Of a stretch of DNA of 64,000 bases, positions 5,005 through 56,236 are shown piece by piece. The position numbers were made by a program, and so were the translations under genes. This stretch comes from Stappia sediminis. GTDB taxonomy: Bacteria; Pseudomonadota; Alphaproteobacteria; Rhizobiales; Stappiaceae. The stretch is taken from positions 1-64,000 of the forward strand of contig NZ_WUMV01000001.1 of NCBI RefSeq assembly GCF_009826895.1, given 5' to 3'. The notes under the pieces were generated by a model that made no database searches, was not told where the DNA came from, and saw only the letters and a list, made by a program, of their open reading frames with translations. How positions within the stretch are numbered: the stretch's first letter is position 1; each line of letters starts with the position of its first letter.

Positions 5005-5010
5005 TCCCTC

Positions 5011-5581: not shown

Positions 5582-5593
5582 GAGCTACAGACG

Positions 5594-7485: not shown

Positions 7486-7488
7486 TCT

Positions 7489-7499: not shown

Positions 7500-7561
7500 T
7501 GACACGGCCTCTGTGGTCGTCTTATTGGATAGATCGTCTTGAAACCAAAAGGAGACGATCA

Positions 7562-7768: not shown

Positions 7769-7845
7769 TGTCTGGAAAGCGCATCGTGATAAAAAGAAGT
7801 GGCTGAGCGGTAGCCATAGGTCCGATACCGGGCTGTTGGGTCGAA

Positions 7846-9669
7846 CTAACCAGCCACTTCAATTTCTGCTTCAGGTTCGGTCGCCTCTTTTGCAGCCCCA
7901 AAGCGCTTGCTTAAGCTCCGATACACATTCCCGACGGCATCGCGCCAACCGTCCGCCGCTAAGCTTAGGCTTTCAGGCTCCAACGCCTTCTTCACGTCGT
8001 CTGGTGTCCATTCCCTAATCAATTGCTTGGCTTGTGCGTAGATGACGGCATAACCAACCCGACCCATGATCAAGCGCTCAGACCATTGGCGCGCGAGTTC
8101 TCGCACCAGTTCTGGATCCTCATAGGTCGCGTAGCGCAATTCCAAGTGCTTTTGCGCCGCTTCCGCTGCCGAGTAGGTCAAGTTGACGAACAACTGATTG
8201 GTTTCACGGACATAGCGCGCGGCCTTCCCGGAGATGCCCTTCTCGGCAACTTCATCCTCATCGCGGAGGGGAATTATCTCTGGGGCTACCTCCAAGTTTT
8301 TGGAAATGTTGGCCCGTTTTGCCCCAGCTGGGTTGAATATAAGATCGGTAGGACGAACCGACTCGCGCTCACCACGAGCCGAGCCGTTCACATCTCCTCG
8401 TGTTGCACCGCGCGCGCCGCCTTCTTCGACGGGGTCGACTCCATCTGCCGCAAGGCGTGGGCTTTGGGTTTTAACACGAAGCTGATTTAGCAGATCCTGC
8501 AACTCCTTGCGTAAGTCATCCGTTGATGCAGAGGTCTTAGGCGCAAGTGAGTTTATGATTTCTACGAGCCAATCTGGTCGATATCGAAAGACGATTTCGG
8601 CAAAGTCCTCGATGACCAACTGCCGTTGGTCACCGGCAGTCAGCTGCACAAACCGTCTATATGGCTCGTGTCGGACAGGGAAATCATCCGGCAACTCAAC
8701 ATGAATGGAGATGTGTCGAGCGCCGAACGGAATGCCGAATGCAGGTGCGTCGGCCGCCCATTTTCTTCCCTTTCGCACATCAAACATCTCACCTCGAAAA
8801 ACTACTGCCGCAGTGCTGATGGATGAAGTTAGTGACCCGGAAATCGACTTGTTGTGGCCGCCGTCTTGGTAAGGAGGGTCATAGAAGTAGTGCACCTTCA
8901 TTCCCTCTCCGACCTCGATCGTTTCAATACGGCCAAACGCTTCCGACCGCTCGGGTATTGCCTTGAACTGCCGTCGTCCATCGCGCGGATGTGTACCTTC
9001 ATGCAGATAGAGTTCGACTCCCTGCGGTAGACGATATAGGCGATGGTAAAGATAGGTAGTGATCCATTGACGATCTTGCGTCGGATCGCCGTTGTAAGGA
9101 TCAGCCACGGTATCCTGATCGGCACGGTTGCCAAAAAGAACGACCTCGGTCCAATCTTCATCAAGCCGATATTCGGCTTCTTCGCGAACGCGGTCTGTTA
9201 CGTCGATGACCTCCTCAAAGGAGTCTTCGACTGGAACCCATATCTTTCCGTAGGTGCCTTCGCGTTTCCCAAGGATGACTTGGCTGACAGTGCCCTCGCT
9301 ACAAGATCGATAACGTATCCCCAGTGTATTAGAAGGGAGGGACGCAACCTTTGCGCCCATGCCAAAGTTGCCTTCAAGAGCCATATCTTTGCCGAGCGAC
9401 GCCGCGAGATCGCATATGTGATCAAGCTCGGCGCTACTCATACCTGGACCGGTGTTCCAAATTGCTAGTTTACGGGTATCCCCGCATTCAGATACCGATT
9501 TTCCCTTAAGTTCAACGACACGCCGCCCTTCCGGTGCTTTAGCAGCGGCCTCAATCGCATTAACAACCAATTCACGAAGCATCATCGTTTTTGGGCACTG
9601 CTCGATCTGTCGCGCGACCGTAAAGTCTATGTCCCGGATAGTGATTGGCGTAATTTGCTTGATGTGCAT
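7846..9669 (-). CDS. GHKL-fold ATPase (Hsp90/MORC-like), candidate defence protein
   Basis: A 607-residue protein with an N-terminal GHKL ATP-binding domain. The N box is E33-x3-N37 (LRELVVNAIEAA). The G1 motif is NTGPGM at 72-77, with Asn where DxGxG normally has Asp. The G2 motif is GNFGMGAK at 100-107. The next 250 residues look like the transducer-like domain of Hsp90, MutL and MORC proteins, and the C-terminal 170 residues are helical, after a linker at about residues 410-440 that is rich in Gly, Arg and Asp. Such ATPases act as conformational clamps in DNA repair, chromatin or antiphage systems. It is preceded by a 76-codon gene 16 bp upstream and has a GGAG ribosome binding site. Confidence 0.75.
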   Translation of the reverse strand: MHIKQITPITIRDIDFTVARQIEQCPKTMMLRELVVNAIEAAAKAPEGRRVVELKGKSVSECGDTRKLAIWNTGPGMSSAELDHICDLAASLGKDMALEGNFGMGAKVASLPSNTLGIRYRSCSEGTVSQVILGKREGTYGKIWVPVEDSFEEVIDVTDRVREEAEYRLDEDWTEVVLFGNRADQDTVADPYNGDPTQDRQWITTYLYHRLYRLPQGVELYLHEGTHPRDGRRQFKAIPERSEAFGRIETIEVGEGMKVHYFYDPPYQDGGHNKSISGSLTSSISTAAVVFRGEMFDVRKGRKWAADAPAFGIPFGARHISIHVELPDDFPVRHEPYRRFVQLTAGDQRQLVIEDFAEIVFRYRPDWLVEIINSLAPKTSASTDDLRKELQDLLNQLRVKTQSPRLAADGVDPVEEGGARGATRGDVNGSARGERESVRPTDLIFNPAGAKRANISKNLEVAPEIIPLRDEDEVAEKGISGKAARYVRETNQLFVNLTYSAAEAAQKHLELRYATYEDPELVRELARQWSERLIMGRVGYAVIYAQAKQLIREWTPDDVKKALEPESLSLAADGWRDAVGNVYRSLSKRFGAAKEATEPEAEIEVAG

Positions 9670-10282: not shown

Positions 10283-12088
10283 ATGCGTTCACCCCGATTT
10301 GATATTCGTGCAAAACCTTTGCGAAGCATCTTCTCACCGAGCAATCTCGAACGGGTGTGGAAGAAGAAAGTGCGGATATCGATGCGACAGCAGTTTCTCA
10401 ATGATGGTGTTGAAAATTTTGACTTTCACGTCGCCCATAAGCAGGAGTGTCTCAAGCTTTCTAGGTTGATCCTTGAAGGTAGTTATGTCCCTCAGCGCGC
10501 TCAACGCATTCTTGTTGAGAAAGGAAAGGGCCTTTGTCGCCAACTCGTTATACCTTCGGTTCGCGATGCCTTGGTGCTGCAATGCCTATCCGATGCACTG
10601 TACAACCAGATAAAGGGCAAGGCGCCGACTGACAGGTCTTTTTTCGAGCCAAAGGAGCATCGTTTCTCTGCGTCGCGTTCCGAATATGGGACATTTGCAT
10701 CTTGGCTGAACTTTCAGCGAGAACTATTCAGCTTCTCTAAAAACCGGCGCTATGTTGTAATTACGGATATAGCTAACTACTACGATACGATTTCGTATGG
10801 ACACTTGCGTAATATCATCGCGTCTATCACAGACGTGGAAGAAAGTGTCTTGGATATGCTGATCTACGTGCTCAGTGATCTGCTTTGGCAACCGGATTAT
10901 GCACCGAGAGTGGAAGTTGGTCTGCCCCAAATTAACTTAGATGCCCCACGCCTTTTAGCTCACTGCTTTCTCTATGAGCTTGATGAGTTTCTAGCTAGCG
11001 ATCCGAACAAAGACTTCGTCAGATATATGGATGATATCGATATAGGCGTGGATACTATAATTGAAGCTAAGGAAGCATTGAAATCTGTCGATCTAGTATT
11101 GCAAACAAAACAAGTGAGACTCAATAGCGGCAAGACCAAGATACTTACCCGCCGCGAAGCGCTCGCGCATTTTCGGGTCGTTGAAAATGCGCGTCTGGAT
11201 AATCTTCAGGAGCGAGTTGATCGGCGCCTTGCAGCGGGCCTTTCTATAGACCGAGAGCGCAAAGTGGTGAGGTTGCGACTAACTCGGGGCCTCAAATCGG
11301 GTGCATTTGACGCTGGCAATGGCGAAAAGGTGCTGAAGCGCTACATCACCCTTGCTTCCAAACTAAAAGTCCAACTGCCGCCGAATGCACTCGAGAAGTT
11401 GATTAGGTTGCGACCAAGCGTAAGAGAAAACGCATTGGCGTATATCCGCAGTCAGCCGCTCACACCGGCAAGGGCCAAAGCTATTGCGGACGTTGCCTCG
11501 TCTGGATGGCTTGTCGATGATGCGGCTTTAGTGGACATATCGAACTACCTCGTCGAAACTCGTGTTGAAACACGAAGCCAGCGAAAAGAGCATATCGAAA
11601 GCCTGATTTCTGCAACTGATGGGCGAACCTATTACGGCCTTTATTGCGGCCTTTGGTTGCGATCCAAGTATACTTCTGTCGACGAGCTGATGAATACTAT
11701 AATGTCCAATAGGCCCGCATGGCTCCAGCATGAACGGCTCGGTCGGCTGGTTGGTGCGTTCACGCCACTATTTCGAGGAACAAGCCATGAGAAGAAATTT
11801 CGAGCATTAGCAATATCGACGGCGAACGATGGAATACGGCAAACCTTCAGGTTTCACTGGCAGTTAGCAAAAGAGAAGTCAGTTTTCGACGATATGTATC
11901 CCTCGTTGAGCAATCTCAATCCATCTCGAGGGACGGGTATGACACACGCCAAGTTTTTATGCCTGTTATCTGCTCTCCAGAACGACAAAGTCCCGATTGT
12001 GAAACGAAATAAACTTCGTGCTACAACAGCACCCGTTTTTGACGATGTGTACTATCGCGCTATCGCAAAGCGTCTAGGTGTCTATTAG
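10283..12088 (+). CDS. Stand-alone reverse transcriptase of the UG/defence (DRT) type
   Basis: A 601-residue protein. Residues 80-290 form a reverse transcriptase domain: the fingers motif RQLVIPSVRDALVLQCL at about 86-102, the first catalytic Asp in RYVVITDIANYYDTI (D162), a variant primer-grip-like GLPQINLDAPRLLAH at about 213-227, and YMDD at 248-251. A KT pair (NSGKTKIL) follows. The C-terminal 300 residues are helical and carry no maturase, HNH or integrase domain, so this is not a group II intron protein. Length and C-terminal helical extension fit the unknown-group and Abi-like reverse transcriptases, several of which block phage. It is the last island gene, about 195 bp from the tRNA. 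Confidence 0.8.
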   Translation: MRSPRFDIRAKPLRSIFSPSNLERVWKKKVRISMRQQFLNDGVENFDFHVAHKQECLKLSRLILEGSYVPQRAQRILVEKGKGLCRQLVIPSVRDALVLQCLSDALYNQIKGKAPTDRSFFEPKEHRFSASRSEYGTFASWLNFQRELFSFSKNRRYVVITDIANYYDTISYGHLRNIIASITDVEESVLDMLIYVLSDLLWQPDYAPRVEVGLPQINLDAPRLLAHCFLYELDEFLASDPNKDFVRYMDDIDIGVDTIIEAKEALKSVDLVLQTKQVRLNSGKTKILTRREALAHFRVVENARLDNLQERVDRRLAAGLSIDRERKVVRLRLTRGLKSGAFDAGNGEKVLKRYITLASKLKVQLPPNALEKLIRLRPSVRENALAYIRSQPLTPARAKAIADVASSGWLVDDAALVDISNYLVETRVETRSQRKEHIESLISATDGRTYYGLYCGLWLRSKYTSVDELMNTIMSNRPAWLQHERLGRLVGAFTPLFRGTSHEKKFRALAISTANDGIRQTFRFHWQLAKEKSVFDDMYPSLSNLNPSRGTGMTHAKFLCLLSALQNDKVPIVKRNKLRATTAPVFDDVYYRAIAKRLGVY

Positions 12089-12282: not shown

Positions 12283-12329
12283 TTGGTAGCGGAGGAGGGA
12301 CTTGAACCCCCGACACGCGGATTATGATT
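12283..12329. repeat. Proximal attachment-site copy inside tRNA-Met
   Basis: The 3' half of the intact tRNA-Met plus two flanking bases, matched at the far island border (1815-1861) with one mismatch in 47. The repeat spans the CCA end, T-arm, variable loop and 3' side of the anticodon arm, the usual target of tyrosine integrases. Confidence 0.85.
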
Positions 12330-12360
12330 CCGCTGCTCTAACCAGCTGAGCTACTCCGCC
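12284..12360 (-). tRNA. tRNA-Met (anticodon CAT)
   Basis: A 77-base gene including the encoded CCA. The acceptor stem starts GGCGGAG, the D-arm is TAGCTCAGCTGGTTAGAGC-like, the anticodon stem GCGGA/TCCGC encloses the loop ATCATAA, and the T-loop is GGTTCAAG within a GGGGG/CCCTC stem. The anticodon CAT fits elongator methionine tRNA. A CAT-anticodon tRNA-Ile is less likely from its overall sequence. It is the insertion target of the island. Confidence 0.95.
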
Positions 12361-42964: not shown

Positions 42965-44611
42965 ATGACTGCCAAACTCATCGACGACGAAAGCTACGTC
43001 GAAGAATACACCGAGGATTTCGTGGGCAATTGGGACAAGCTGATCGGCTGGGATGGCCGGCGCAAGAGCGAGTCCGGGTTCTTTCATCGCTTGTTGAACG
43101 CTTATGGCGTTGAATCCGTTGCCGATATCGCCTGCGGTACGGGGTTTCATTCGGTCGTCCTGGCCGAAGACGGTTTCAAGGTGACGGCCTGCGACGGCTC
43201 GGCCAACATGATCGAACGGGCCAAACAGAATGTCGTGCAATCCGGCGTCGAGCTGGTCGATACACGCGTCGTCGACTGGCGCGAGCTTCACAAGGCCTTC
43301 GGTCCGGAGGCTTTCGATTCTCTGGTTTGCCTCGGTAACGCGTTTTCGCATCTTTTCGAACATGAATCGCGCCGCGATGCGCTTGAATCCATGTTCAAAG
43401 TGCTGAGGCCTGGTGGAATACTCATCATCGACCACCGCAACTACGACAGCATCCTGGATGAAGGCTACAGCACCAAGCACGAGTTCTATTACACCGGCAA
43501 AGGAGTGGACGCGCGGCCGGTCATCATCAGCCGCACGATGTGCAAGTTCCAGTACAGCTTCCCCAATGGCGATCGGCATACGCTGCAGCTTTATCCGCTG
43601 CGCCAGAACTACATGAGCCATCTCCTGGAGGATGCCGGCTTCGTAGATGTAACCCGCTACGGCGATTTCGAGCGTCCCTACGACCACTACGACGTCGATT
43701 TCATCCAGCAGGTTGCCTTCAAGCCCGTCGACAAGACGAGCGGCATCAAGCCGAAGCGCAAGGAAACGGCGGCCCAGAAGAACAAGAACCTGACCCGTGT
43801 CGTGCGCGAAACGCGCGAATATTACGACGGCGCGGCGGATGAGATTTATCGCGACATCTGGGGCGAGAACGTCCACATCGGCACGTTCGAGCTAGAGGGC
43901 GAAAGCCTCCAGTCGGCGATGGTGCGTTCCAACCAGCGTATCGGCGACCTGATGGAGGTGCCGCGCAAGTCCCAGGTTCTCGATGTCGGCTGTGGCTACG
44001 GCGCAATGGCGCGCTTCCTGTCACGCCGCTTCGGTTGCCGGGTGCTTGCCACGAACATCTCCGAGCGGGAGCTGGAATGGGGTGCGGAACTGACGCGCGA
44101 CGCCGGGCTCGACGATCTCGTCGCCTTCGAATGGGCCGATTTTCACGACCTGCCTTACGATGACGGCATCTTCGATATCTACATGTCGCAGGAAGCCTTC
44201 CTTCACGCCGCCGACAAGCAGAAGGTTCTCGACGAGGCTTACCGCGTGATCAAGCCGGGCGGTCAGATCGTCTTTACCGACCTTCTGGTGCGCAAGGACG
44301 TTTCGAAAGAGGACCGCGAGCGCATTTACCAGCGCATCAAGTCTCCGGACATGTTCGATGCCGCCGACTACCGCGAGGCGCTGGCAAAAAGCGGCTTCGA
44401 TATCAAGACCGATGCCGACTGGTCGGAAAACGTGGCGCCCACCTACGCCTGGGTTCGCTCCGAACTCTTGCGCCGCAAGGCCGAGTTCGACGACCGGATC
44501 GGGGCGGAACTCGTGGAGCGCACGGCGAACGCCCTGCAGTTCTGGGTCGATGCGGCGAATGCCGGGAAGATCGGCTGGGCCTGCTTCATTGCGGAAAAGT
44601 CAGCGAATTGA
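42965..44611 (+). CDS. Fused glycine/sarcosine N-methyltransferase and sarcosine/dimethylglycine N-methyltransferase
   Basis: A 548-residue fusion. The first half (residues 1-260) is a GSMT with VADIACGTGFHSVVL near residue 52. The second half (from about 285) is an SDMT with VLDVGCGYGAMARFL near residue 338 and the FTDLLVRKDVSKEDRERIYQ segment. Together they methylate glycine three times to glycine betaine, an osmoprotectant, using S-adenosylmethionine each time. Fused forms are known from Actinopolyspora, separate ones from Ectothiorhodospira and cyanobacteria. The metK gene next door supplies the methyl donor. A longer frame to 42869 lacks a start signal. Confidence 0.9.
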   Translation: MTAKLIDDESYVEEYTEDFVGNWDKLIGWDGRRKSESGFFHRLLNAYGVESVADIACGTGFHSVVLAEDGFKVTACDGSANMIERAKQNVVQSGVELVDTRVVDWRELHKAFGPEAFDSLVCLGNAFSHLFEHESRRDALESMFKVLRPGGILIIDHRNYDSILDEGYSTKHEFYYTGKGVDARPVIISRTMCKFQYSFPNGDRHTLQLYPLRQNYMSHLLEDAGFVDVTRYGDFERPYDHYDVDFIQQVAFKPVDKTSGIKPKRKETAAQKNKNLTRVVRETREYYDGAADEIYRDIWGENVHIGTFELEGESLQSAMVRSNQRIGDLMEVPRKSQVLDVGCGYGAMARFLSRRFGCRVLATNISERELEWGAELTRDAGLDDLVAFEWADFHDLPYDDGIFDIYMSQEAFLHAADKQKVLDEAYRVIKPGGQIVFTDLLVRKDVSKEDRERIYQRIKSPDMFDAADYREALAKSGFDIKTDADWSENVAPTYAWVRSELLRRKAEFDDRIGAELVERTANALQFWVDAANAGKIGWACFIAEKSAN

Positions 44612-44621
44612 TCCACGATGC

Positions 44622-44663
44622 CGACTGCCGTGGAAAGCCACGCGATTGATTTCGCGGCAGTCG
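44622..44663 (+). terminator. Hairpin between the betaine methyltransferase and metK
   Basis: A perfect 9-bp stem, 44622-44630 with 44655-44663, encloses an inner TGG/CCA hairpin and is followed by TTCTTTC. It may be a weak terminator or an attenuator or processing site between the two genes. The rest of the 182-bp gap has further paired segments (GCCCG/CGGGC, and GGCACGTGCC) but no known riboswitch consensus that I can see. Confidence 0.45.
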
Positions 44664-44793
44664 TTCTTTCAAGGGTGAAAAAGGGCGTTCCCGGGAACTT
44701 CCGATGGCCCTTCTCGCCCGCATCCGTGGGGGCACGTGCCTTTCAACGGGCAAAGTTGTCCCCGCACCATTTCAAGAAGGGTAACCTGAACTG

Positions 44794-45969
<1,176 letters not shown>

Positions 45970-46004
45970 AAGTCGCTGAAAAGACGTAGCGGCAAGTGAA
46001 AATC

Positions 46005-46037
46005 AGGCCCGGCGGCTTCAGGTTGCCGGGCTTTTTT
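46005..46037 (+). terminator. Rho-independent terminator after metK
   Basis: A perfect 7-bp GC stem (46007-46013 with 46025-46031), extended by two weaker pairs, is followed by six T residues. It closes the betaine unit. Confidence 0.9.
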
Positions 46038-46149
46038 CATCCATTTTTCACGTCCGGACCCTCATTGACTGTGCCTGCGGCTTTCAATTCGCAAGGGCCG
46101 TACCTAAATCGACTGACGAACAAGAATGAGCGACACCTCCGGAGCCTGA

Positions 46150-47151
46150 ATGAAACTGATATATCGATTTCGTGCTGTTTTCCTTCTTCTGGCGCTTGCC
46201 ACCACGCTAAGCCTGATTGCCGCCGATTATGCGGAGGCGCGGCGCGGATTTTCCTTCGGGGGCAGGGGTTTGCGCACGTTTTCGGTGCCCAAGGCGACGC
46301 CGACGGCACCACGCAAGGCGCAACCGCTGCAAAACACCCAAACGCCGCGGCAGAGCGCATCGCCTTCACAGGCGACAAGGCAGAATTCCGCCACTTCGCC
46401 GCGGCGTGGCCTCTTCGGTGGCGGTTTCTTCGGCTCCATGATGGGCGGTCTTCTGCTCGGCGGGCTTATCGGCATGCTGCTGGGCCACGGGATCGGCGGC
46501 TTCGCCGGCATGCTGGGCCTCCTGCTGCAACTGGCCATTATCGGCGGAATTGTCATGTTTTTCATGCGTCGGCGGCAGCCCGAACCGCAACCGGCCTATG
46601 CGCCGGCGGGCCTTGCGAGCGCGCGGCTTTCGCAGTTTTCGGGCCAGCGCGAAAACCACGCGTCACCGGGGTTCCGGGTGCCGGATATCGGTGGAGCATC
46701 CGCATCTTCCGCAGCGTCTACAAAGCCTTTTTCGGAAGGGGACGAGATCGGCGTAACACCTGAGGATCTGGACGTCTTCGAAAAGCTCCTGACCGAGATC
46801 CAGGAAGCCTTCGGGCGGGAGGACTATACTGCGCTGCGCGACCTTTCGACGACGGAAGCCTTTGGATTCCTTGCGGAAGATCTCGGAAAAGCAGCGTCCG
46901 CAGGCCTCGTGAACGAGGTGCGCGATATCAGGCTGCTGCAGGGTGATCTTTCGGAGGCATGGCGCGAGGGTGCGGAGGATTTCGCAACGGTTGCAATGCG
47001 TTACTCGTCAATTGACGTAACGAGAGAGCGAGCGACGAACAAGGTCGTCGAAGGCGATCCCGACACCCCCTCGGAAGTGACGGAACTTTGGACCTTCGTG
47101 CGCGAAAACGGCGGAAACTGGCGGCTTTCCGCCATCCAGCAGGCCGGGTGA
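46150..47151 (+). CDS. Tim44-like domain membrane protein
   Basis: A 333-residue protein. An N-terminal signal-like segment (AVFLLLALATTLSLIAADYAEA) is followed by a Pro/Thr/Gln-rich stretch and two Gly-rich transmembrane helices (FGSMMGGLLLGGLIGMLLGH and GLLLQLAIIGGIVMFFM). The C-terminal 140 residues are a Tim44-like domain with EDLDVFEKLLTEIQEAFGRE. Role in membrane transport or maturation is unknown. Confidence 0.85.
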   Translation: MKLIYRFRAVFLLLALATTLSLIAADYAEARRGFSFGGRGLRTFSVPKATPTAPRKAQPLQNTQTPRQSASPSQATRQNSATSPRRGLFGGGFFGSMMGGLLLGGLIGMLLGHGIGGFAGMLGLLLQLAIIGGIVMFFMRRRQPEPQPAYAPAGLASARLSQFSGQRENHASPGFRVPDIGGASASSAASTKPFSEGDEIGVTPEDLDVFEKLLTEIQEAFGREDYTALRDLSTTEAFGFLAEDLGKAASAGLVNEVRDIRLLQGDLSEAWREGAEDFATVAMRYSSIDVTRERATNKVVEGDPDTPSEVTELWTFVRENGGNWRLSAIQQAG

Positions 47152-47259
47152 TACCGGCCTGACGGGGGCCTGAGAGGCTGTCCACGCAAGCGGCGAAGAT
47201 AATTCCCAAAGGCGCGAAAAAGGTGAAACGAGGGGATTTGAGAAAGTCTCAGAATTCCC

Positions 47260-48195
47260 TCATGGCCATTTCACGACCGGCGGCATGGAAGACAGGATGG
47301 AGGCGACGTTTCCGCCCGTCCTGAGGCCGAAAATCGTGCCCCGGTCGTAAAGCAGATTATACTCCACATAGCGGCCACGGCGGATAAGTTGCTCCTCGCG
47401 CTCCGCCTCGCTCCAGGGCGTTTCGAAATTGCGTCGCACGAGGTCGGGATAGATCTTGCGGAAGGCGCGGCCGACATCCTGCGTGAAGGCGAAATCGGCC
47501 TCCCAATCGCCGCTGTTGAGATAATCGTAGAAAATGCCGCCGATGCCGCGCGGCTCGTCGCGGTGTTTCAGGTAGAAGTATTCATCGCACCATGTCTTGT
47601 AGTGGTCGTAATCGGCGCAGGCGTGAGCGTCGCAGGCTTCGCGCATGGCGGCGTGGAAGGCGCGCGTGTCCGGATCGGCTTGCGTGCGGCGGGCATCGAG
47701 AACGGGGGTGAGGTCCGCCCCGCCGCCGAACCACTGGCGCGTGGTGACGACCATGCGCGTGTTCATGTGAACGGCTGGAACATGCGGGTTGTGCGGATGG
47801 GCGATCAGCGAGATGCCGGAGGCCCAGAAGCGCGGATCTTCCGATGCTCCCGGAATCTGGCCGCGAAACTCCGGCGAGAACGAGCCGTGGACGGTGGAAA
47901 CGTGAACGCCGACCTTTTCGAAAACGCGGCCATGCATCATCGACATGACGCCGCCGCCGCCCTTTTCGCCGTCGTGGTTCGTGCGGTCCCAGGGGGTGCG
48001 GACGAAACGGCCGGGCGCCATATCCGAAAGCGGGCCGGAAAGCGAGCCGATCTCATCTTCGAGCGCCTCGAAAGCGGAGCAGATATCGTCGCGCAAGCTT
48101 GCGAACCATTCGGGCGCGCGGATCTTCTTCTCCTCGATCCCGCCGGGGATCGGCCCGCCCTTGATATCTCCGCCCTTCGCCTTGTCGCCGCTCAT
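47260..48195 (-). CDS. hemF: Oxygen-dependent coproporphyrinogen III oxidase
   Basis: A 311-residue enzyme of heme synthesis that converts coproporphyrinogen III to protoporphyrinogen IX with oxygen. Signatures include [15 protein letters not shown]-like text, [20 protein letters not shown] and [20 protein letters not shown]. Full length, with ATG 48195. Confidence 0.95.
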
Positions 48196-48231
48196 GATCC
48201 GCCTTTCGAATTTGATCGATTGAAGAGACGT

Positions 48232-48774
48232 TTAGGGGAAAGCCTTCGTCTGGCGCAAGGCCTCGCCCAGCACCATCGCGCCGGATATCGCGACATTGAG
48301 CGAGCGCATGCCCTCCGCCATGGGGATCAAAAGCCGCGCATCGGCGGCATCGTGAACCGCATCCGGCACGCCGGCGGACTCCCGCCCGAGCAGGAGAATG
48401 TCCGAGCTTTCAAAGGAAAACGCGGTGTAGGGCTCCGCCGCGCGGGTGGAGAGCAGGACGAGCCGCCGCGCTTCGCCCTTCCGCCAATCCTCGAAAGCGG
48501 CGAAGGAGACATGGCGGGTCAGCGCCGCGCGCTCCAGATAGTCCATCCCCGCGCGCTTCAACGCATGGTCGGATAGCGGAAAACCCGCAGGCTCGATCAG
48601 GTGAACGCAGACACCCATGCAGGCGGCAAGGCGCAGGATCGTGCCCGTGTTCTGCGGAATATCGGGCTGGTAAAGGGCAAGATCGGGCACGGGCTTCCGC
48701 TTCGGCTTTGATGGTTCGGCAAAAGGGTTTAGCCGATTTTCAGGAGCCGTGAAACGCGCCCCGCCTCGCTTCAT
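48232..48774 (-). CDS. trmL: tRNA (cytidine/uridine-34-2'-O)-methyltransferase TrmL
   Basis: About 180 residues, a SPOUT-type knot methyltransferase. Marks: LALYQPDIPQNTGTILRLAA, IEPAGFPLSDHALKRAGMDY, and the knot segment LLLGRESAGVPDAVHDAAD. It methylates position 34 of Leu tRNAs. The N-terminus is extended by about 35 residues compared with the usual TrmL; start 48774 is one option, 48801 the other. Confidence 0.92.
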   Translation of the reverse strand: MKRGGARFTAPENRLNPFAEPSKPKRKPVPDLALYQPDIPQNTGTILRLAACMGVCVHLIEPAGFPLSDHALKRAGMDYLERAALTRHVSFAAFEDWRKGEARRLVLLSTRAAEPYTAFSFESSDILLLGRESAGVPDAVHDAADARLLIPMAEGMRSLNVAISGAMVLGEALRQTKAFP

Positions 48775-48775
48775 T

Positions 48776-49870
48776 TCACCGGCGCGCTTCATGCGGCCCA
48801 AGCTTTTCCCAATCGAACTCGACGCCGGTGCCGGGCGTATCGGGCGCCTGGGCGAGAGCGTTTTTCATCACGAGTGGCCGCTTCGTATAGGCGTCAATCG
48901 GAAAGGAATGCACCTCGATCAGGCCGGCGTTCTCCTGCGCGGACACGAGGGAGACGTGAAGCTCCTGCATGCCGTGGCTGCAAACGGGCAGGCCGTTACG
49001 GCGCGCAAGCTCGGCCACGCGCAGCCAGCCGGTTATCCCGCCGCAGTTGGAGGCATCCGGCTGGATGTAGGAAAGCTGCGAATTCTCAAGAGCGAGCGAG
49101 AATTCGTCGAGCGTGTGCAGGTTCTCGCCCATGGCAAGGGGAACGTAAGTCTCCTCCGCGATGCGGGCGTAGCCGAAATAATCGTCCGGCACGATAGGCT
49201 CTTCGAACCAGAGGATATCGAGGGGGGCGAAGGCGCGTGCCGCCGCAATCGCCTGATCGACGGTGAAGGAATAATTCGCATCCACCATGAAGGCGATGTC
49301 GGGGCCGATCAGATCGCGGACGGCGGCGGCGCGGGCGACGTCCTCGGCAAGTGTCGGCCGCCCCACCTTGATCTTCACTCCGTCGAAGCCCTCATCGAGG
49401 TAGGAGCGGACGGAGGCGAGAAGCTTTTCAAGCGAATAGCCAAGGTCGATACCGCCGCGATAGGCGCGGCATTCGCGCGCCGCCCCGCCTGCCATCCGCC
49501 AGAGGGGAAGGGCGTTTTCACGCCCCCGCAGGTCCCAAAGGGCGATGTCTATCGCCGATATCGCGAAGGAGGCGATGCCCCCGCGCCCGACATAATGAAC
49601 GTGCCAGAGCATAGCGTCATGAAGCGCCTCGATCTCGCGCGCGTCCTGGCCAAGGAGGAAGGGGGCAAGATCATGTTCCACCATGGCAAGGATCGCGTGG
49701 CCGCCCTTGCCGCCGGTATAGGTGTAGCCGGTGCCGGAGCGCCCGCCTTCGGTGGTGACGGTCACCGTCACCAGCTCGAAATGCGTATGCGCGCCGTGCT
49801 TCGCATCCTCCAGAACCTCGGCAAGCGGAACACGGAAAAGCCGCGCGGATATATCCTTGATCGTGCTCAC
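48776..49870 (-). CDS. Enolase-superfamily enzyme (mandelate racemase/muconate lactonizing group)
   Basis: A 364-residue enzyme. Residues that fit the mandelate-racemase-type active site are K-x-K in GVKIKVG, the metal ligands in FMVDANYSF (Asp), ILWFEEPI (Glu) and MGENLH (Glu), and the general-base His in CSHGMQELH. These enzymes dehydrate or racemise acid sugars or other carboxylates; the substrate is unclear. It is one or two bases upstream of trmL, same strand. Confidence 0.88.
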
Positions 49871-50044
49871 GGGTTGCCCCTCCGTGACGCTAGTTTTGTG
49901 CCACGTTTGGGAGATTACACGAAAGGAGTGGTGCAGGGCGTCGGTTCGGTGAGAAACGGAAATGGTCTAGCCGGTTCTGAGGGAGCGTAAAGGATGAGGG
50001 CTATGCAATCAGCCTCTTGAGCCTTGCCCCTTGGCCCAGGTCGT

Positions 50045-50073
50045 TTGACAAGCGGTATCGCGTAAAATTACAA
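50045..50073 (+). promoter_or_regulatory. Sigma-70-like promoter of the methyltransferase-DGQHR operon
   Basis: TTGACA at 50045-50050 is followed, 17 bp later, by TTACAA at 50068-50073, with a palindromic AGCGG/CCGCT pair around. The region is AT-rich relative to flanks and lies 43 bp before the start of the methyltransferase gene. Confidence 0.45.
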
Positions 50074-50115
50074 ATTCCGCTATCATAGGTTGATTCTTTT
50101 TAAGGAGCCGCACCT

Positions 50116-51054
50116 TTGAAGGAGACACAGCTTGACAACGAAAAGCACCGACTGCTTCAGGGGGACGCGGCGTTAAGACTGCGAGATGTTCCTGATGGTA
50201 CTTGTCGCCTCGTGATCACTTCGCCTCCCTACAATATCGGGAAGGAGTACGAGAGAGATCGGAGGCGGACGCTGGATGAATACATTGAGTGGCTAGATCC
50301 AATTGTCCAAGCCTGCTGCGATAAGGTTGCGGAAGACGGGCATCTATGCTGGCAAGTGGGAAATCATCTCAAAGACGGAGAGGTATTTCCTCTAGATTAT
50401 TTTTTCTATAGTATGATTTCGAGAAGGGGATTTAAACTCAGAAATCGTATAATTTGGCATTTTAATTTTGGATTACATGCGACAAAGAGATTTTCTGGTC
50501 GATATGAAACGCTCCTTTGGTTCTCGAAATCTGATAAATACTATTTTAATCTAGATCCGGTCCGTGTTCCACAGCTATATCCGGGTAAACGCCACGCGAG
50601 GGGGAAGGGTGCTAGAGCAGGGCAACCAAGTGGAAATCCCGCTGGTAAAAATCCGACAGACTTCTGGACGTTCGATCCGAACGAAGCGTTAAATGGTAAT
50701 CCGATCTGGGATCTGCCGAATATCAAGTCGCGCCATCCGGAGAAGACTATTCATCCCTGCCAATTCCCAAGTGAGCTTGTTGAGCGATGCGTTCTCGCGT
50801 TCACTGAAGCAGGGGATACAGTATTGGATCCATTCGTCGGTGCTGGGACCACTGTTATCGCCGCCGCTAAGCACCAACGTATAGGTGTCGGCATAGATCA
50901 GAGCGAGAAGTACATTCAGATCGCGCGTTCGCGCTTGCAAGATTTTCTTGATGGAGATTTGGAGCTGAGGCCATTTGGTAAGCCGGTTCGCCGTCCCCGG
51001 TCGGGGGAGCGAGTCGCTACTGTACCTGCTGAGTGGCAGACGGCAGCCGAATAG
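50116..51054 (+). CDS. Site-specific DNA methyltransferase (beta-class, SPPY type)
   Basis: A 312-residue protein. Catalytic motif IV is S36-P-P-Y39, and the S-adenosylmethionine motif is DPFVGAGTT at about residue 238. This order fits the beta class of N6-adenine or N4-cytosine DNA methyltransferases (the SPPY and FxGxG motifs). The start is TTG at 50116, with AAGGAG eight bases before it. The frame of the start of the DGQHR gene follows 17 bases after the stop. Probable modification half of a restriction-type pair. Confidence 0.85.
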   Translation: MKETQLDNEKHRLLQGDAALRLRDVPDGTCRLVITSPPYNIGKEYERDRRRTLDEYIEWLDPIVQACCDKVAEDGHLCWQVGNHLKDGEVFPLDYFFYSMISRRGFKLRNRIIWHFNFGLHATKRFSGRYETLLWFSKSDKYYFNLDPVRVPQLYPGKRHARGKGARAGQPSGNPAGKNPTDFWTFDPNEALNGNPIWDLPNIKSRHPEKTIHPCQFPSELVERCVLAFTEAGDTVLDPFVGAGTTVIAAAKHQRIGVGIDQSEKYIQIARSRLQDFLDGDLELRPFGKPVRRPRSGERVATVPAEWQTAAE

Positions 51055-51071
51055 TTTTTAGGACATTTAGA

Positions 51072-52838
51072 ATGGCAAAGAAGCCTCAAAGCAAGAGTAA
51101 AAAAAGGAAAAAACTTACGCCTGAAGAGCGTCAAAAAAATAAACGTAGAGAATATCACATTCGAACTGTGCAATCAGTTCTTCGAAATGCTGGATTTGAT
51201 CGAGTTCCGGAAGTTGCAAATAAAGATATTAGTTGGGGTGGGCAGGACGGCGAGTTTGATGACGTATTCGTATCCGAAAATATGGTTTTGTTGTTAGAAT
51301 ATACTACTTCTCAGTCTTCCGATGTTAGAGAGCATTTAAAGAAAAAGAAAATTATATTCTCAAATGTGGTTGCCGACCCAAAGGGTTTTCTTGATTATCT
51401 TCGTGGTAATTTTTCTGAATTCAATAAGAGGCTAGGGAATAAATTTCATGAAGATAGATATATTATTAGAATTTTATATTGTTCATTAAACGAATTTGAC
51501 GAAAGTATAAAGGATGTTGTAAATGAACCTGTTTATTTTGATTATCCAGTTCTGAAATATTTTGAAAAAATATCTTCAATTATAAAACTTTCTGTTCGTG
51601 GTGAGTTATTGGAGTTTCTTCGTATAGATCCGAGTGACGTGGCCGAAAACGGATTGTTTCAACAGCAGGGCAATTCCCGTACCCTCAACGGTTCTATCCT
51701 GCCCGAGGCCTCTTCCGGATTTCCGACGGGATACAAGGTCGTATCGTTTTACGTTGATGCGGCATCTTTATTGTCGCGAGCATATGTCCTCCGCCGCGAC
51801 GGTTGGCGAGGGTCATCTCAAGCTTATCAGCGCATGATAAATAGCTCAAAAATTGAGTCTATGAGGAAGAAACTGAAAACAGATCAGCAGGTCTTCGTGA
51901 ATAATTTGATTGCTACCTTGCCGTCGGACGTTCATCCGGAGGAAAAGGATGGGAAAACTGTCGACATCACCACGTTAACTAAGACTTCTCCGGTAAAGAT
52001 AAGACTACCAGAGCGAGCGAACTCAATTGGTATGATAGATGGTCAGCATCGGCTATTTTCATACTATAAGTCTAGAAATGATGATCCTGAAATAGCGCGA
52101 CTTCGACATCATCAAAACCTTCTTGTTACGGGGGTTATCTATCCGCCTGATGTTGACGAAGAGGAGCAAGAGAGGTTCGAAGCCAAACTATTTCTATCGA
52201 TTAATGCAACTCAAACTAATGCGCCAACACCGTTACGCCAAGAAATAGAGACGGTTCTTAATCCTTTCAGTGCAACTGCGATTGGTCGCCGAGTAATGGC
52301 GCAACTCGCGAAGAATGGGCCACTCACTGGTTATGTTGAAAAGTATTTCTTTGATAAAGGAAAATTAAAAACTAGCTCGATTGTAAGTTATGCTTTGGGT
52401 CCATTGCTTAAATTAAGCGGAACTGATTCTTTATTCTATATTTTTGATCACGAAAATAAGGAAAAAATTAATACAGAATCAGGCCAGAAGGTTTTGAACG
52501 AATATATAAACTTCTCTGTTTCGAAGATTAATATGTTTTTAAATGCCGTTAAGAATAATGTGGAAGCTAAAAGGTGGACAACGGATCCGAAGCAAAAAGA
52601 TCGTTTGGTTACCGTCACGTATATTAATAGTTTTCTGATAACGATGAGGTATCTCATTGAGAGCGGAAACAAAATTGATGAGTTTTCGTCATTAAAAGCC
52701 GCTCTTTCCGATATTGATAGTTTTAATTTTAGAGCGTATCACTCCAGCCAATATGCGCGTATGGCGGAAAATCTATTTCAAACGTATTTTGCGAGCGACT
52801 ATACTAATAGGAATAAGCCTGCTAACGACTCGTCATAA
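51072..52838 (+). CDS. DGQHR-domain protein with nuclease-like N-terminus
   Basis: A 588-residue protein. The DGQHR motif is exact at residues 323-327 (SIGMIDGQHRLFSYY), in the DndB-related domain, with a conserved FLSINATQT segment at about 395. Residues 30-100 show a pattern that resembles a PD-(D/E)xK nuclease fold: E61, D63-D64, then LLLEYTT with E76; the usual Lys is replaced by Thr78, so nuclease activity is doubtful. The N-terminus is very basic (KSKKRKK). The gene is strikingly AT-rich against its neighbours, which indicates transfer. DGQHR proteins occur with DNA modification and defence genes. The start codon 51072 is preceded by AGGAC. Confidence 0.8.
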   Translation: MAKKPQSKSKKRKKLTPEERQKNKRREYHIRTVQSVLRNAGFDRVPEVANKDISWGGQDGEFDDVFVSENMVLLLEYTTSQSSDVREHLKKKKIIFSNVVADPKGFLDYLRGNFSEFNKRLGNKFHEDRYIIRILYCSLNEFDESIKDVVNEPVYFDYPVLKYFEKISSIIKLSVRGELLEFLRIDPSDVAENGLFQQQGNSRTLNGSILPEASSGFPTGYKVVSFYVDAASLLSRAYVLRRDGWRGSSQAYQRMINSSKIESMRKKLKTDQQVFVNNLIATLPSDVHPEEKDGKTVDITTLTKTSPVKIRLPERANSIGMIDGQHRLFSYYKSRNDDPEIARLRHHQNLLVTGVIYPPDVDEEEQERFEAKLFLSINATQTNAPTPLRQEIETVLNPFSATAIGRRVMAQLAKNGPLTGYVEKYFFDKGKLKTSSIVSYALGPLLKLSGTDSLFYIFDHENKEKINTESGQKVLNEYINFSVSKINMFLNAVKNNVEAKRWTTDPKQKDRLVTVTYINSFLITMRYLIESGNKIDEFSSLKAALSDIDSFNFRAYHSSQYARMAENLFQTYFASDYTNRNKPANDSS

Positions 52839-53044
52839 TATTAATTGGCCGATCTATGAAGAGATATTCTGGATTGATTTAGTGCGGCGAGTAATGGCTC
52901 ATTTGATAGAAATTAATCACCATGAAAAATAGCTAGCATGTTACTCAACAAGCATTACCGCTCTCGACGACATAACTCTGAAACCCAATCACCCAAGCTC
53001 TATCCCTAGCTCCCACCGCATAACTGCGGCATACTTTCACCGGG
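52839..53044. other. AT-rich tail of the island and sigma-gene upstream region
   Basis: About 205 bp. The first 110 bases keep the AT-rich character of the preceding gene, the rest changes to ordinary composition. No gene or direct repeat that would mark an island border is visible. Confidence 0.4.
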
Positions 53045-53560
53045 ATGGTTGATCACGACAAAATCCTGAGGCTGCGGCCTCAGTTCACCGCCTATGCCTA
53101 TGCGCTTTGCGGCGATGCTTGCGACGGGGACGACCTCGTGCAGGAAGCGATTGCCCGCGCGCTGGAAAGCGGGAGCGTGCCCGACACGCTGCCCGATATG
53201 CGGCACTGGATGTTCCGCGTCATCCGTAATCTCTACATTGACAGACAGCGCAGGAAAAAGGTGCGCTCGGAATATTCCGCCTCGTATAAACGTTTAATTG
53301 ATGGGGAGCCGGCTGGTGAGGACAATCGGCTGGACTCCATCCTGATCCGGCAGGCGATGGCAGCGCTTTCGCCCAACCACCGCGAGGTGCTTTACCTGGT
53401 CGATGTGATGGGGATGAGCTATGCGGAGGCGGCAAACGTCATGACGGTTGCCACCGGCACGGTGATGAGCCGGCTGAGCCGGGCACGAAGGGCGATGGTG
53501 GATGAGCTTGAAGGGTCCAACGTCAGGCCGATGAGGGCAAGGCGGAAACGGAAGACATGA
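53045..53560 (+). CDS. ECF RNA polymerase sigma factor
   Basis: A 171-residue sigma-70-family ECF protein. Region 2 is FTAYAYALCGDACDGDDLVQEAIARAL and region 4 is ALSPNHREVLYLVDVMGMSYAEAANVM, both clear. It overlaps the anti-sigma gene by four bases. Beside sulfite-oxidation genes, it resembles the Sinorhizobium RpoE4-type locus, in which an ECF sigma controls sulfite dehydrogenase. Confidence 0.92.
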   Translation: MVDHDKILRLRPQFTAYAYALCGDACDGDDLVQEAIARALESGSVPDTLPDMRHWMFRVIRNLYIDRQRRKKVRSEYSASYKRLIDGEPAGEDNRLDSILIRQAMAALSPNHREVLYLVDVMGMSYAEAANVMTVATGTVMSRLSRARRAMVDELEGSNVRPMRARRKRKT

Positions 53561-54339
53561 TGCGCGGGCAGGAAAACGGCGGGCAGGAAAACGATTGGGT
53601 GCTGCTGAACGGTTTCGCCGACGGCGAACTCGACGCAGCACTATCCGCCGCGTTTGAGGCGCGCCTTGCCGACGAGCCGGGCCTTCAGGCCGAACTCGAC
53701 CGTATCCTCAAGCTCAAGAAGGGCCTTGCGGCCCTGCGCCCCGCCGAAGCCGCCCCGGATGCCGCCACGGACGAACGCAAGCCCGCGAAGAAGCCGCGTG
53801 CGCGCGCTTTTGCGGCCATCGCCGCGTGTCTGATCGTCGCCGTGATGAGCCTCTCCGCCTGGCAGTATCTTCTGCCCCCGAACCTGGAAGACAGCGTGTT
53901 CGCCTTGCACGAAAGGCTGGCGCGGCAGACCTACGTCGTTGAGGAAGGCAAGGTGGAAAAGGTCGTCTCCACGGGCCGGGCGTTCGAGTTCAGCGCGCCG
54001 GACATGACGGCGTCGCGGCTGTTCCTCGTCGATGTGGAAACGGGCCGCGCGGGCGGGAGCGACATCGTCGGCCTGCATTACCGCGGGCTGCACGGCTGCC
54101 GGCTGACGCTGATCGCGGTCGACGGGGCATCCAGCGCGCCGCCGATGAAACGCGCCGGCTTTCTGGTGCGCAACTGGGCCGCAGGCGGGTTCGGCTTCGT
54201 GATGGTCGCCAGTGGCATGGACGCCGAGCGCTTCGAGGCCGTCGGCGAATACGCCGAAGCCGTGATCCAGCACCAGTTGCGCAGGCGGGATGAATTCCGC
54301 CACGCCATGAGCGAGACGGCGGCGCGCCCCTGCGCGTGA
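53557..54339 (+). CDS. Membrane anti-sigma factor
   Basis: A 260-residue protein. The N-terminal part starts with LLNGFADGELDAALSAAFEA, typical of anti-sigma N-domains, but has no H-x3-C-x2-C zinc motif. One transmembrane helix (FAAIAACLIVAVMSLSAWQYL) is near residue 90-110, and the rest is periplasmic. It should hold the partner ECF sigma at the membrane until a signal. Confidence 0.8.
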   Translation: MMRGQENGGQENDWVLLNGFADGELDAALSAAFEARLADEPGLQAELDRILKLKKGLAALRPAEAAPDAATDERKPAKKPRARAFAAIAACLIVAVMSLSAWQYLLPPNLEDSVFALHERLARQTYVVEEGKVEKVVSTGRAFEFSAPDMTASRLFLVDVETGRAGGSDIVGLHYRGLHGCRLTLIAVDGASSAPPMKRAGFLVRNWAAGGFGFVMVASGMDAERFEAVGEYAEAVIQHQLRRRDEFRHAMSETAARPCA

Positions 54340-54356
54340 GCGAATTATCCGGCTAA

Positions 54357-54671
54357 TTATCGTTTCGGGAAGTGGGGCCGGTCCTCGTTATAGTTCTCGG
54401 CCAGATAGTCGAGGATGCGGGTGCGGTCCGGCTCCGGAATTTCCGCCATGCCCTGCTCCTCGCGCATCCACTCGAACAGGTCCTCCCAATGCTTGCGGGT
54501 CTTGCCCTGCTGGGCGACGATCATCTCCGAATGGCAGGCCGTGCAGTAGATGTAGGTTTCCTCCACGCCCGGCGCGTTGAAAAGAATTCCGTATTCGGAA
54601 TCTTCCGCGAAGGCCGGGGCGGAAAGGGCGGCGATCGCAAGACTCAGGCAGGTTGCGAGAAGATGGTTCAT
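54357..54671 (-). CDS. c-type cytochrome, electron acceptor of the sulfite dehydrogenase
   Basis: A 104-residue protein. The signal peptide (up to about residue 22, ...APAFA) is followed by the heme motif C43-T-A-C46-H47, and by the likely Met ligand in EQGMAEIPEPDR. It matches SorU/SorB-type monoheme cytochromes. It is encoded 75 bp after the sulfite dehydrogenase, same strand. Confidence 0.8.
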   Translation of the reverse strand: MNHLLATCLSLAIAALSAPAFAEDSEYGILFNAPGVEETYIYCTACHSEMIVAQQGKTRKHWEDLFEWMREEQGMAEIPEPDRTRILDYLAENYNEDRPHFPKR

Positions 54672-54746
54672 GGCAGGTCCGGGCTTGGGATGACGTGATG
54701 AAGGGGCGGCAGGTCTGCCGCCCCCAACGTTCGATTTGCGAAGAGA

Positions 54747-56042
54747 TCAGACGATGCGCACGCCGACGCGATGCATCGAATTGTTGAGATAGCCCTTCGG
54801 GTTCCACGCAATCGCAAAGGGCTGCGCGACGCCGGCATCATCCGTCGCCCGGGCCCAGATCTCGTAATAGCCGGCTTGCGGGAAATTGACGGTCGTGCGC
54901 CAGTTCTGCCAGGCGCCGTCGTTCACCGGGGCTTCCAGCTCTGTCTCAATCCACGTCGCGCCGAAATCGATCGAGATGTCGACACGCTCGATCTTGCGGT
55001 CGCCGGACCAGGCGTGGCCGCGCACCTCCGCCCCTTGCGCGCCAAGCTCGGCGCCCGTCGCGGGGCTGGTGATCAGGGACTTCACCGGCATGCGCTCGAT
55101 GATGACGAAATCCTCCTTGGCGACCTCCTCGCCCGGCGCAACGGGGCGGTTCGGAACGCGATAGGACGTTCCCGTCATCTTCGGACCGTCGTGGACGACA
55201 TCGCGCAGCCAGATGCGCTTCAGCCACTTCTGCGAGCACGACCCCGGCCAGCCGGGAACGACGAGGCGCAGCGGCGCGCCGTTCATCGGATGCAGGGCCG
55301 CGCCGTTCATCTCGAACGCGATGAGGACGTTGTCCGTCATCGCCTTCTCGATCGGAACGCCGCGCGAGATCGGCAGTTTCCCGGGATCGCCCGACAGATG
55401 CGTATCGGCGCCGACGTGCGCGGTGTAGACGACGCCGTCCTTCACGCCGGCCTTCGCCAGCACATCCTTCAGGCGAACGCCCGTCCACTCCGAACAGGCC
55501 ACCGCACCAAGCGTCCACTGGTTGCCCGACGCCGGCGGATCGAAGAACGCGCGCCCGTTGCCGCCGCATTCGATCGTGAGAGCCATGTTCACAACCTCGA
55601 AATTGGACTTGAGGTCGGCGATCGTCAGTTCCATCGGATTGTCGACGAGGCCGTCGATCGTCAGGGTCCAGGTGGTGGGGTCGACGTCTTCCGGCGGCAG
55701 GCCGTTGTTGCGGATGAAATGCCGGTTCGTCGGCGTGATCGGGTCGTCAAGCAGCTGGGGTGGCGTTTCCGCGTTGACCGGTCTGTCGTTCAAAAGGGTC
55801 AGGCCATCCTTGCCGGTGAGCGCGTCTTCATTGGCGAAGGCGACCGGAATGAAGCCCGCCGGCATGGTGCGGTGATAAGGAATAGCCATCCCGAGCATGG
55901 CGCCCATGGTGGTCAGGCCCGCGCCGCGCAGAAAACCGCGCCGGTCGGAATGGGAAATCCGCCCGAAGAAATGACGGTCGGCGCTTTCGGGGTCTTTTTC
56001 GAAGTAAGCGAACAGCCCCTTGCTTTCGTTCTTCACGGACAT
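54747..56042 (-). CDS. sorT: Periplasmic sulfite dehydrogenase, molybdopterin subunit
   Basis: A 431-residue protein of the sulfite oxidase family. The Tat signal is HSDRRGFLRGAG (R34-R35). The molybdenum-binding Cys is in MALTIECGGNGRAFF, and GWPGSCSQKWLKRIWLRDVV is typical. It oxidises sulfite to sulfate and passes electrons to the adjacent cytochrome. I choose start 56042 (MSVKNESKG), which has a GGGAGG ribosome binding site; a longer frame to 56159 lacks one. Upstream, GGAATAAAG and CGTT about 17 bases apart could be an ECF promoter. Confidence 0.88.
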   Translation of the reverse strand: MSVKNESKGLFAYFEKDPESADRHFFGRISHSDRRGFLRGAGLTTMGAMLGMAIPYHRTMPAGFIPVAFANEDALTGKDGLTLLNDRPVNAETPPQLLDDPITPTNRHFIRNNGLPPEDVDPTTWTLTIDGLVDNPMELTIADLKSNFEVVNMALTIECGGNGRAFFDPPASGNQWTLGAVACSEWTGVRLKDVLAKAGVKDGVVYTAHVGADTHLSGDPGKLPISRGVPIEKAMTDNVLIAFEMNGAALHPMNGAPLRLVVPGWPGSCSQKWLKRIWLRDVVHDGPKMTGTSYRVPNRPVAPGEEVAKEDFVIIERMPVKSLITSPATGAELGAQGAEVRGHAWSGDRKIERVDISIDFGATWIETELEAPVNDGAWQNWRTTVNFPQAGYYEIWARATDDAGVAQPFAIAWNPKGYLNNSMHRVGVRIV

Positions 56043-56236
56043 GTATTCCTCCCTTTGCAATGTCCTCAATAAACAAACGCACAGGGCCGGCTCTTTATTC
56101 CGTCGAAAACAACCTGAGGGGTGGCGCTTGCGCCATGTGCGGCGGCCTGTCCCAGACAATCACCGTCTGTTCGGACAATGCGATTGCCGATAGGTTGGCC
56201 ACAACCGAAGCAGGCAGGGCAAAGCGCAATTTCGAT

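Follow-up and report, generated by a model that had tools for sequence, protein, structure and literature searches.

The first 64,000 nucleotides of a contig of the α-proteobacterium Stappia sediminis (NCBI RefSeq assembly GCF_009826895.1, contig NZ_WUMV01000001.1, forward strand; hereafter the window) contain a compact cassette of two genes, here called M and D, which are the subject of this report (Table 1). M starts at a TTG codon and encodes a DNA methyltransferase that carries the motif TSPPY first and DPFVGAG last, which we take to be the beta order; TSPPY presumably points to N4-cytosine or N6-adenine as the methylated base. The protein also matches the PADLOC model MTase_II (E 2.6e-68). 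D follows on the same strand after 17 nt, with an ATG start preceded by AGGA. A reading made from the letters of this DNA alone (the sequence-only reading) had described an SPPY-type methyltransferase gene with a DGQHR gene 17 bases further on, the latter AT-rich beside GC-rich host genes. Both statements are borne out, the first by the coordinates and the matches to PF01555 and TIGR03187, the second by a GC content of 38.9% in D and 59.3% in the window (49.9% in M). The GC content of D also fell below that of its own locus in all eight of the other loci compared. Purifying selection on D is apparent from the comparison of the window with the related locus L008, in which 0.27, 0.15 and 0.62 differences per codon fall on first, second and third positions, respectively. 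No RNA family was found at the locus at E 0.1, promoter-like sites were no more numerous than expected by chance (6 vs 6.3), and terminator-like sites were slightly above chance (5 vs 3.1).

Table 1. Features of the M-D locus, in window coordinates (aa, amino acids; pLDDT, predicted local distance difference test; L088, contig of the same-genus genome G744)
Feature	Position	Strand	Evidence
Variable slot without counterpart in same-genus genome G744	49927..53001	.	blastn of window vs L088; PADLOC of two L088 genes
AAGGAG, probable ribosome-binding site of M	50102..50107	+	sequence; 8 nt upstream of M
M, 312-aa site-specific DNA methyltransferase, class A	50116..51054	+	PF01555 E 3.5e-52; alignment with partners; motif table
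D, 588-aa protein with predicted nuclease fold and DGQHR part	51072..52838	+	TIGR03187 72.5 bits; AlphaFold mean pLDDT 90.9
N-terminal domain of D, residues 14-198, predicted PD-(D/E)xK fold	51111..51665	+	AlphaFold pLDDT 95.1; VIA matches
E61-x-D63, first acidic part of proposed active site	51252..51260	+	conservation in 61 sequences
E76-x-T78, second part of proposed active site, Thr where Lys is usual	51297..51305	+	61/61
H88-xxx-K92, helix after the ExT strand, proposed site of relocated lysine	51333..51347	+	conservation; helix 82-101 in model
ParB/sulfiredoxin-type nucleotide-binding domain of D (predicted), residues 218-383	51723..52220	+	VIA ParB/Noc/KorB rows; PF14072 in relatives
D323-GQH-R327, DGQHR motif	52038..52052	+	61/61 invariant

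Relatives of D were detected in 3 plasmid records, 1 phage, 59 genome contigs and 5 + 2 further viral contigs of IMG/VR. The phage and one IMG/VR contig carry an identical D, and with the window the set comprises 70 distinct loci. The genome contigs gave no relatives with a single-protein query and 59 with an alignment query; the scans seed on short patterns, and the counts are lower bounds. To judge from record titles, to which we assigned the phylum names ourselves, the contigs presumably belong to Pseudomonadota, Bacteroidota, Desulfobacterota, Planctomycetota, Nitrospirota, Neomarinimicrobiota, Bacillota, Uhrbacteria and Nanoarchaeota, several of these being represented by one or two metagenome-assembled genomes, so single assignments may be wrong. 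The cassette would span many bacteria and apparently some archaea. D is nevertheless rare in whole genomes, with matches in 2 of 385 of the class (the S. sediminis genome and one 50-residue match at E 5e-4) and in 4 of 398 of the phylum (the S. sediminis genome and three that match only the C-terminal part).

Pairing with a methyltransferase could be assessed in 68 loci, the start of D lying at a contig edge in L062 and L063. In 65 of the 68, a methyltransferase open reading frame (ORF) overlaps D or is no more than 50 bp away; D start codons were set by rule, and the distances are approximate. Sixty-one of these 65 are upstream of D on the same strand, and M is downstream of or convergent with D in four loci (L046, L049, L065, L070). 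Three loci depart from adjacency: on a Spirosoma plasmid (L004, 6425-8523) a BglII-type enzyme gene stands between the methyltransferase gene and a D fragment cut at the record edge, which reflects an assembly edge or else a genuine hybrid of three genes; in L029 the methyltransferase is 2.6 kb upstream, with a HATPase gene and another gene between; and in L050 a divergent methyltransferase is about 0.8 kb away. Co-occurrence of the two genes in other genomes, which the sequence-only reading had named as a test of the pair, is thus the rule. In one further locus, L033 (Marinilabiliales), D (6001-7782) is interrupted by a stop codon. The control was a search of 240 genomes of the class with TIGR03187, which gave matches in 13 of them, that of S. 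sediminis included. The 12 other genomes (two of them under the family cut-off) provided 12 regions with 13 DGQHR genes, one at a contig edge. Searched with a profile of the D-paired methyltransferases, which could miss those of other families, these genes had their nearest methyltransferase at 854 bp and the next at 4.3 kb, and ten regions had none; the N-terminal domain of D was found in none of the 13 genes. Because the control genes lack an adjacent methyltransferase, the pairing seems confined to the sub-family of D and not to extend to DGQHR proteins at large. A common third component did not emerge from clustering of 487 neighbouring ORFs, in which a family occurred at no more than 5 loci.

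The structure of D was modelled with AlphaFold on 61 sequences, and conservation was counted over 61 aligned full-length D sequences with identities to the D of the window down to 27%. The modelled N-terminal domain runs through a helix (17-39), three strands (58-61, 64-68, 71-78), a second helix (82-101) and a further strand (131-138), so that the alpha-beta-beta-beta-alpha-beta core of PD-(D/E)xK nucleases is present in the prediction. The best VIA matches of this domain were AF1548 (Z 9.4), the nicking enzyme Nt.BspD6I (9.2), FokI (8.4) and BstEII (8.2), followed at lower scores by Can2, LmuA, Bse634I, PspGI, SgrAI, HindIII and a Holliday resolvase; we take all of these nucleases to have the PD-(D/E)xK fold. 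Neither sequence nor profile searches with D against the PDB gave a credible relative; what supports the predicted fold is that fold list, topology and conserved residues agree.

Residues D63, N70, E76, T78 and H88 are invariant in the alignment (61/61), K92 is kept in 60 of the 61 sequences, and residue 61 is always acidic (40 E, 21 D). D63 starts one strand of the model, E76 and T78 end the next, and H88 and K92 are four residues apart on the following helix, where they can face the same way. The sequence-only reading had seen a nuclease-like N-terminus in which Thr replaces the Lys of PD-(D/E)xK. This holds for E61, D63, E76 and T78 throughout the family, with the refinement that T78, being invariant, is no lesion; loss of the lysine by mutation in this one strain is thereby ruled out. 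Because T78 and HxxxK are conserved throughout the D family, the arrangement D...ExT...HxxxK would be a family-wide design and not decay, which speaks for a functional site with a changed layout, and we read K92 as standing in for the lysine of ExK. The accessible part of PMC1189080 provides a precedent in PD-(D/E)xK nucleases such as Tt1018 (1wjd), in which, as proposed for D, the active-site lysine has been displaced to another place in the fold; since such variants are known, the fold assignment can stand despite the non-canonical site. D differs from them in that Thr always fills the old position and the proposed lysine lies in HxxxK. BsoBI, whose PDB title describes cutting by histidine catalysis, appears in the VIA list at Z 5.4, and H88 may possibly have a comparable role.

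The DGQHR part of D is matched by TIGR03187 over residues 225-528, above the cut-off of 58.85 bits, and all 61 family members match at E<=1e-3. The D of the window has no Pfam match at E 1, whereas PF14072 (DndB) is the only recurrent Pfam match among the 61 relatives (47 of 61 at E 0.1). VIA compared residues ~218-383 with ParB, Noc and KorB at Z 5.7-7.1 (best 7bnr, ParB, 7.1), below the noise line of Z 8 but in agreement with the TIGR03187 and PF14072 matches and with the invariant R327. DGQHR proteins are marked by a QR pair, DGQHR and FxxxN, according to the accessible text of PMC4619093, and the corresponding elements of D, Q253-R254, D323-R327 and F374-N378, are invariant in all 61 sequences. 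A fold survey, in the portion of PMC12704722 available, reports binding of ATP and GTP by a DndB-like protein, for which a conserved P-motif arginine was needed. By analogy, R327 would be the counterpart of that arginine, and D likely binds a nucleotide. D shares its three marks with DndB/DGQHR proteins (PF14072, TIGR03187, TIGR03233) and is distantly like a Dnd-linked DGQHR family, but it differs in its extra N-terminal domain of predicted nuclease fold and in its methyltransferase partner. The DndB equivalog model TIGR03233 left the D of the window unmatched at E<=1 and matched 1 of the 61 members at 1e-3.

The cassette occupies a variable slot. A genome of the same genus, G744, aligns by blastn at 86-91% to window positions 44001-48739, 49740-49926, 53002-54349 and 54358-56104. 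The earlier placement of the pair on an insertion is confirmed in that other genes replace the slot in G744; the left flank is itself variable, since positions 48740-49739, most of an enolase-like gene, are missing there as well. In G744 the slot (6574-9497 of contig L088) encodes a protein with a TIR domain (PADLOC Aga_TIR-PNTD1-PNTD2, E 9.3e-156) together with a short Argonaute (pAgo_I, E 1.1e-200), which we take to be a SPARTA-like pair, and in a second genome of the genus this stretch and more is absent, trmL leading directly to sequence that matches the right end of the window. Because the flanks are kept while the cargo is a TIR/short-Argonaute pair in G744 and M-D here, the slot thus appears to be a place of defence cargo exchange. 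By Pfam, the near flanks are enolase-like and sigma-factor-like genes; direct repeats of at least 9 bases were absent from the insertion borders. The pair is also carried on seven IMG/VR viral contigs and in Akkermansia phage Chantilly, whose D is identical to that of one of the seven and is close to the integrase.

From the observed pairing, predicted fold, conserved site and mobile setting, together with the exchange of methyltransferase classes described below, we consider it rather probable that M and D form a restriction-modification system. The nuclease would be D, whose DGQHR domain would read DNA or gate cutting in a nucleotide-dependent manner. M would methylate a specific site in host DNA and, being encoded upstream, could protect self DNA before D accumulates. 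As the restricting partner, D would bind nucleotide and DNA through its ParB/DndB-type domain and cut unmarked DNA through its PD-(D/E)xK-fold domain, in which D63-E76-T78-H88-K92 replaces D-ExK as the active site. Since cutting of methylated DNA would kill a cell bearing M, we infer that D is inhibited by the mark or acts on foreign DNA only. A site-specific methyltransferase and an adjacent partner of predicted nuclease fold are features that the pair shares with type II restriction-modification, which further requires that the nuclease cut the very site protected by the methyltransferase. A putative role in defence, which would include restriction of phage, is supported by context, namely that a relative has a short-Argonaute pair in this slot and that viral contigs carry the cassette. 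The view that this is a modification-linked defence pair without earlier description is likewise supported by pairing and context; no description of the pair was found in the open-licence literature searched, supplements lying outside the search.

The neighbours of other relatives of M bear on this proposal. A close relative of M occurs in 12 plasmid records, of which two are D loci and seven more were inspected. The methyltransferases of L004, L076, L077 and L078 share 49-53% identity with M. A BglII-type enzyme (PF09195) directly follows the M relative on the plasmids of Acinetobacter (L076) and Sphingobium (L077), and on that of Paracoccus (L078) the protein in this position is just below the PF09195 cut-off (25.2 vs 26 bits). 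Since 3 of the 6 plasmids without D have such an enzyme after M (one of them sub-cut-off), D seems, by gene order, to occupy the position held by a restriction enzyme in some M relatives. The likeness to BglII/BstYI type II systems is that of a related methyltransferase with an enzyme directly after it; their partner enzyme has ~200 amino acids, whereas D has 588 and an unrelated architecture, and PF09195 is not in D. If the BglII/BstYI relatives are a guide, M might recognise a sequence close to RGATCY, which we rate as slightly less likely than not. On the class A tree, D-paired and enzyme-paired methyltransferases are interleaved, D needing 4 changes of which starred branches force 2. The sequence-only reading had set a separate known partner of the methyltransferase against the pair, and none was found: the S. 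sediminis genome has no PF09195 match, while two plasmids bearing PF09195 scored as positive controls, PF09195 being the sole restriction family screened genome-wide. Two more PF01555 methyltransferases are encoded in this genome (C15:447958-448626 and C16:479783-480415).

A position next to a DNA-modifying enzyme is also that of DpdB in 7-deazaguanine DNA systems (NF041060), which has the same DGQHR domain. It can be asked whether D is a DpdB-like nucleoside triphosphatase (NTPase) that helps M to modify DNA, for example by nicking, opening or adding to the methylated base, in a system of modification without restriction. D is related to DpdB (E 5.4e-8), although it scores 32.1 bits against a cut-off of 300 and the match is limited to residues 221-534. 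DpdB is described in the accessible text of PMC12839542 as an adenosine triphosphatase that drives preQ0 insertion into DNA and is dispensable in some clusters. We regard such a helper function as very unlikely, as some M relatives adjoin ordinary restriction enzymes and a nuclease fold with an invariant site would be superfluous. To our knowledge, methyltransferases of M's kind need no helper.

The restriction-modification proposal has to accommodate a change of partners. The 67 methyltransferase entries fall into 25 of class A (SPPYNIGKEY type, that of the window), 36 of class B (SPPYFDMKDY type; one is the duplicate phage) and 4 of class C (TDPPYN), with two unclassed (L050 and the broken class A gene of L012). 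On a tree of 63 D proteins these classes require 11 changes (10 without L050), against a minimum of 3 and 23.8 after shuffling, so partners appear to have been kept for long stretches yet swapped several times. The closest class-swapped pairs are L060/L066 (B and C) and L029/L041 (A and B), with D 54-74% identical in each part. A segment of D tracking the methyltransferase class, which would have been a candidate recognition domain, was not found, the trees of three parts of D requiring 10, 11 and 11 changes; in the closest identity bins, different-class pairs were 3-5 points less identical, both outer parts of D alike. This leaves two readings, that the sites protected by the three classes are related or that site recognition is not achieved by D alone.

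With three classes of M as partner, site matching may be unneeded, as would hold if D were a suicide guard kept quiet by a nucleotide or by contact with M and released as a broad nuclease when a phage interferes with methylation or nucleotide pools. The joining of an NTP-binding fold to a nuclease fold and the slot shared with a TIR-Argonaute pair would suit such a guard; TIR-Argonaute pairs act by abortive infection. We nonetheless think it unlikely, since the loci have no separate sensor gene in common and a DNA methyltransferase as partner in 65 of 68 loci better fits the mark-based self recognition of restriction-modification.

Several observations weigh against D being the nuclease of a restriction-modification system. 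With regard to the fold, RNA polymerase subunit E accounts for six chains among the 50 VIA rows shown (Z 5.4-6.0), a Z near 9 barely exceeds the usual noise of the tool (7-8), Foldseek gave no match to D at E 0.001 (best 0.052 and 0.0023), and the canonical (D/E)xK lysine of the third strand is absent, Thr taking its place in 61 of 61 sequences. With regard to the gene pair, D is not simply a stand-in for a BglII-type enzyme, because both stand together in L004; three of the six plasmids with an M relative and no D (L079-L081) have no recognised restriction enzyme adjoining; and a matching of sites between D and M is difficult to account for, the partner having switched among three classes with no part of D following the class. 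In the finished Sphingomonas chromosome L012, moreover, the adjacent methyltransferase gene (4941-5929) is split in two frames while D is intact, which should be lethal in simple restriction-modification unless it reflects a sequencing error or D is off. Finally, DndB, the best-studied DGQHR protein known to us, is a transcriptional regulator, and in Salmonella it represses its own operon (PMC4507180, in the part accessible).

These last points also bear on the possibility that D acts as a repressor of the DndB kind, responding to a nucleotide and setting the methyltransferase level, with the nuclease fold as a dead module for DNA binding or dimerisation. The DndB/DGQHR nature of the C-terminal part, the lost motif lysine and the intact D beside the broken methyltransferase of L012 would all be understandable for a repressor. 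A dead site would not, however, be expected to keep D63, E76, T78, H88 and K92 in 60-61 of 61 sequences, and a common operator is awkward in the four loci where M is downstream or convergent; we consider this account improbable. More tentative than restriction-modification as such, and in our view rather doubtful, is the wider claim that the cassettes constitute a distinct restriction-modification type, found in some nine phyla of bacteria and archaea. A single conserved nucleotide-gated nuclease (a ParB/DndB sensor with a D-ExT-HxxxK site) would then work with interchangeable methyltransferases of three classes, and the methyltransferase or its mark, not the nuclease, would set what is self.

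The DGQHR superfamily, the methyltransferase family of M and the logic of restriction-modification are known; new, as far as our searches of the literature and PADLOC reach, are the architecture of D, the active-site variant and the exchange of partners. GmrSD and other enzymes of ParB fold and nuclease (DUF262-HNH) resemble D in joining a ParB-fold NTPase to a nuclease, and DUF262 and DGQHR have been linked before (accessible text of PMC4619093). GmrSD, according to the same text, has HNH and cuts modified DNA, whereas D has a predicted PD-(D/E)xK fold and stands beside a methyltransferase. If the proposed system is real, it would represent a new restriction enzyme architecture, with a ParB/DndB-type nucleotide switch inside a nuclease, and would extend the use of the DGQHR domain beyond phosphorothioate and deazaguanine systems. 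It raises the testable question of whether one restriction nuclease can serve several methyltransferase classes and, if it can, whether it reads the mark, the methyltransferase or a shared site. The 61 aligned full-length examples of D, in compact two-gene cassettes, are a resource for this purpose.

Some further observations concern other DGQHR genes and the surroundings of D. A 798-residue DGQHR/DndB protein of genome G143 (L112, 4252-6645) has a weak N-terminal match to the Card1-like endonuclease family PF09002 (E 4.8e-5, just under the cut-off), and no methyltransferase was found near its gene; fusion of a nuclease with a DndB domain may have arisen more than once. In three Bacteroidota loci a gene directly follows D (L020 7725-8486, L029 7709-8452, L041 7723-8484), and a similar gene lies near D, ~1.5 kb upstream on the other strand, in L016 and L048. 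Both of the two products scanned have a weak, sub-cut-off likeness to the DNA-deoxyinosine glycosylase TIGR04274 (best E 2.5e-5), and this gene is possibly an accessory. The same three loci have a HATPase protein and then an unknown gene upstream of D; in L020 the HATPase protein is like the beginning of BbrUII/HgiDII restriction enzymes, at E 4.1e-23 and below the cut-off. Elsewhere in the window, positions 10283-12088 (+) encode a 601-residue defence-associated reverse transcriptase (PADLOC RT_UG13a, E 4.3e-225) in a lower-GC stretch beside a tRNA-Met gene (12284-12360) and with a HATPase gene (7846-9669), which is probably a second defence island.

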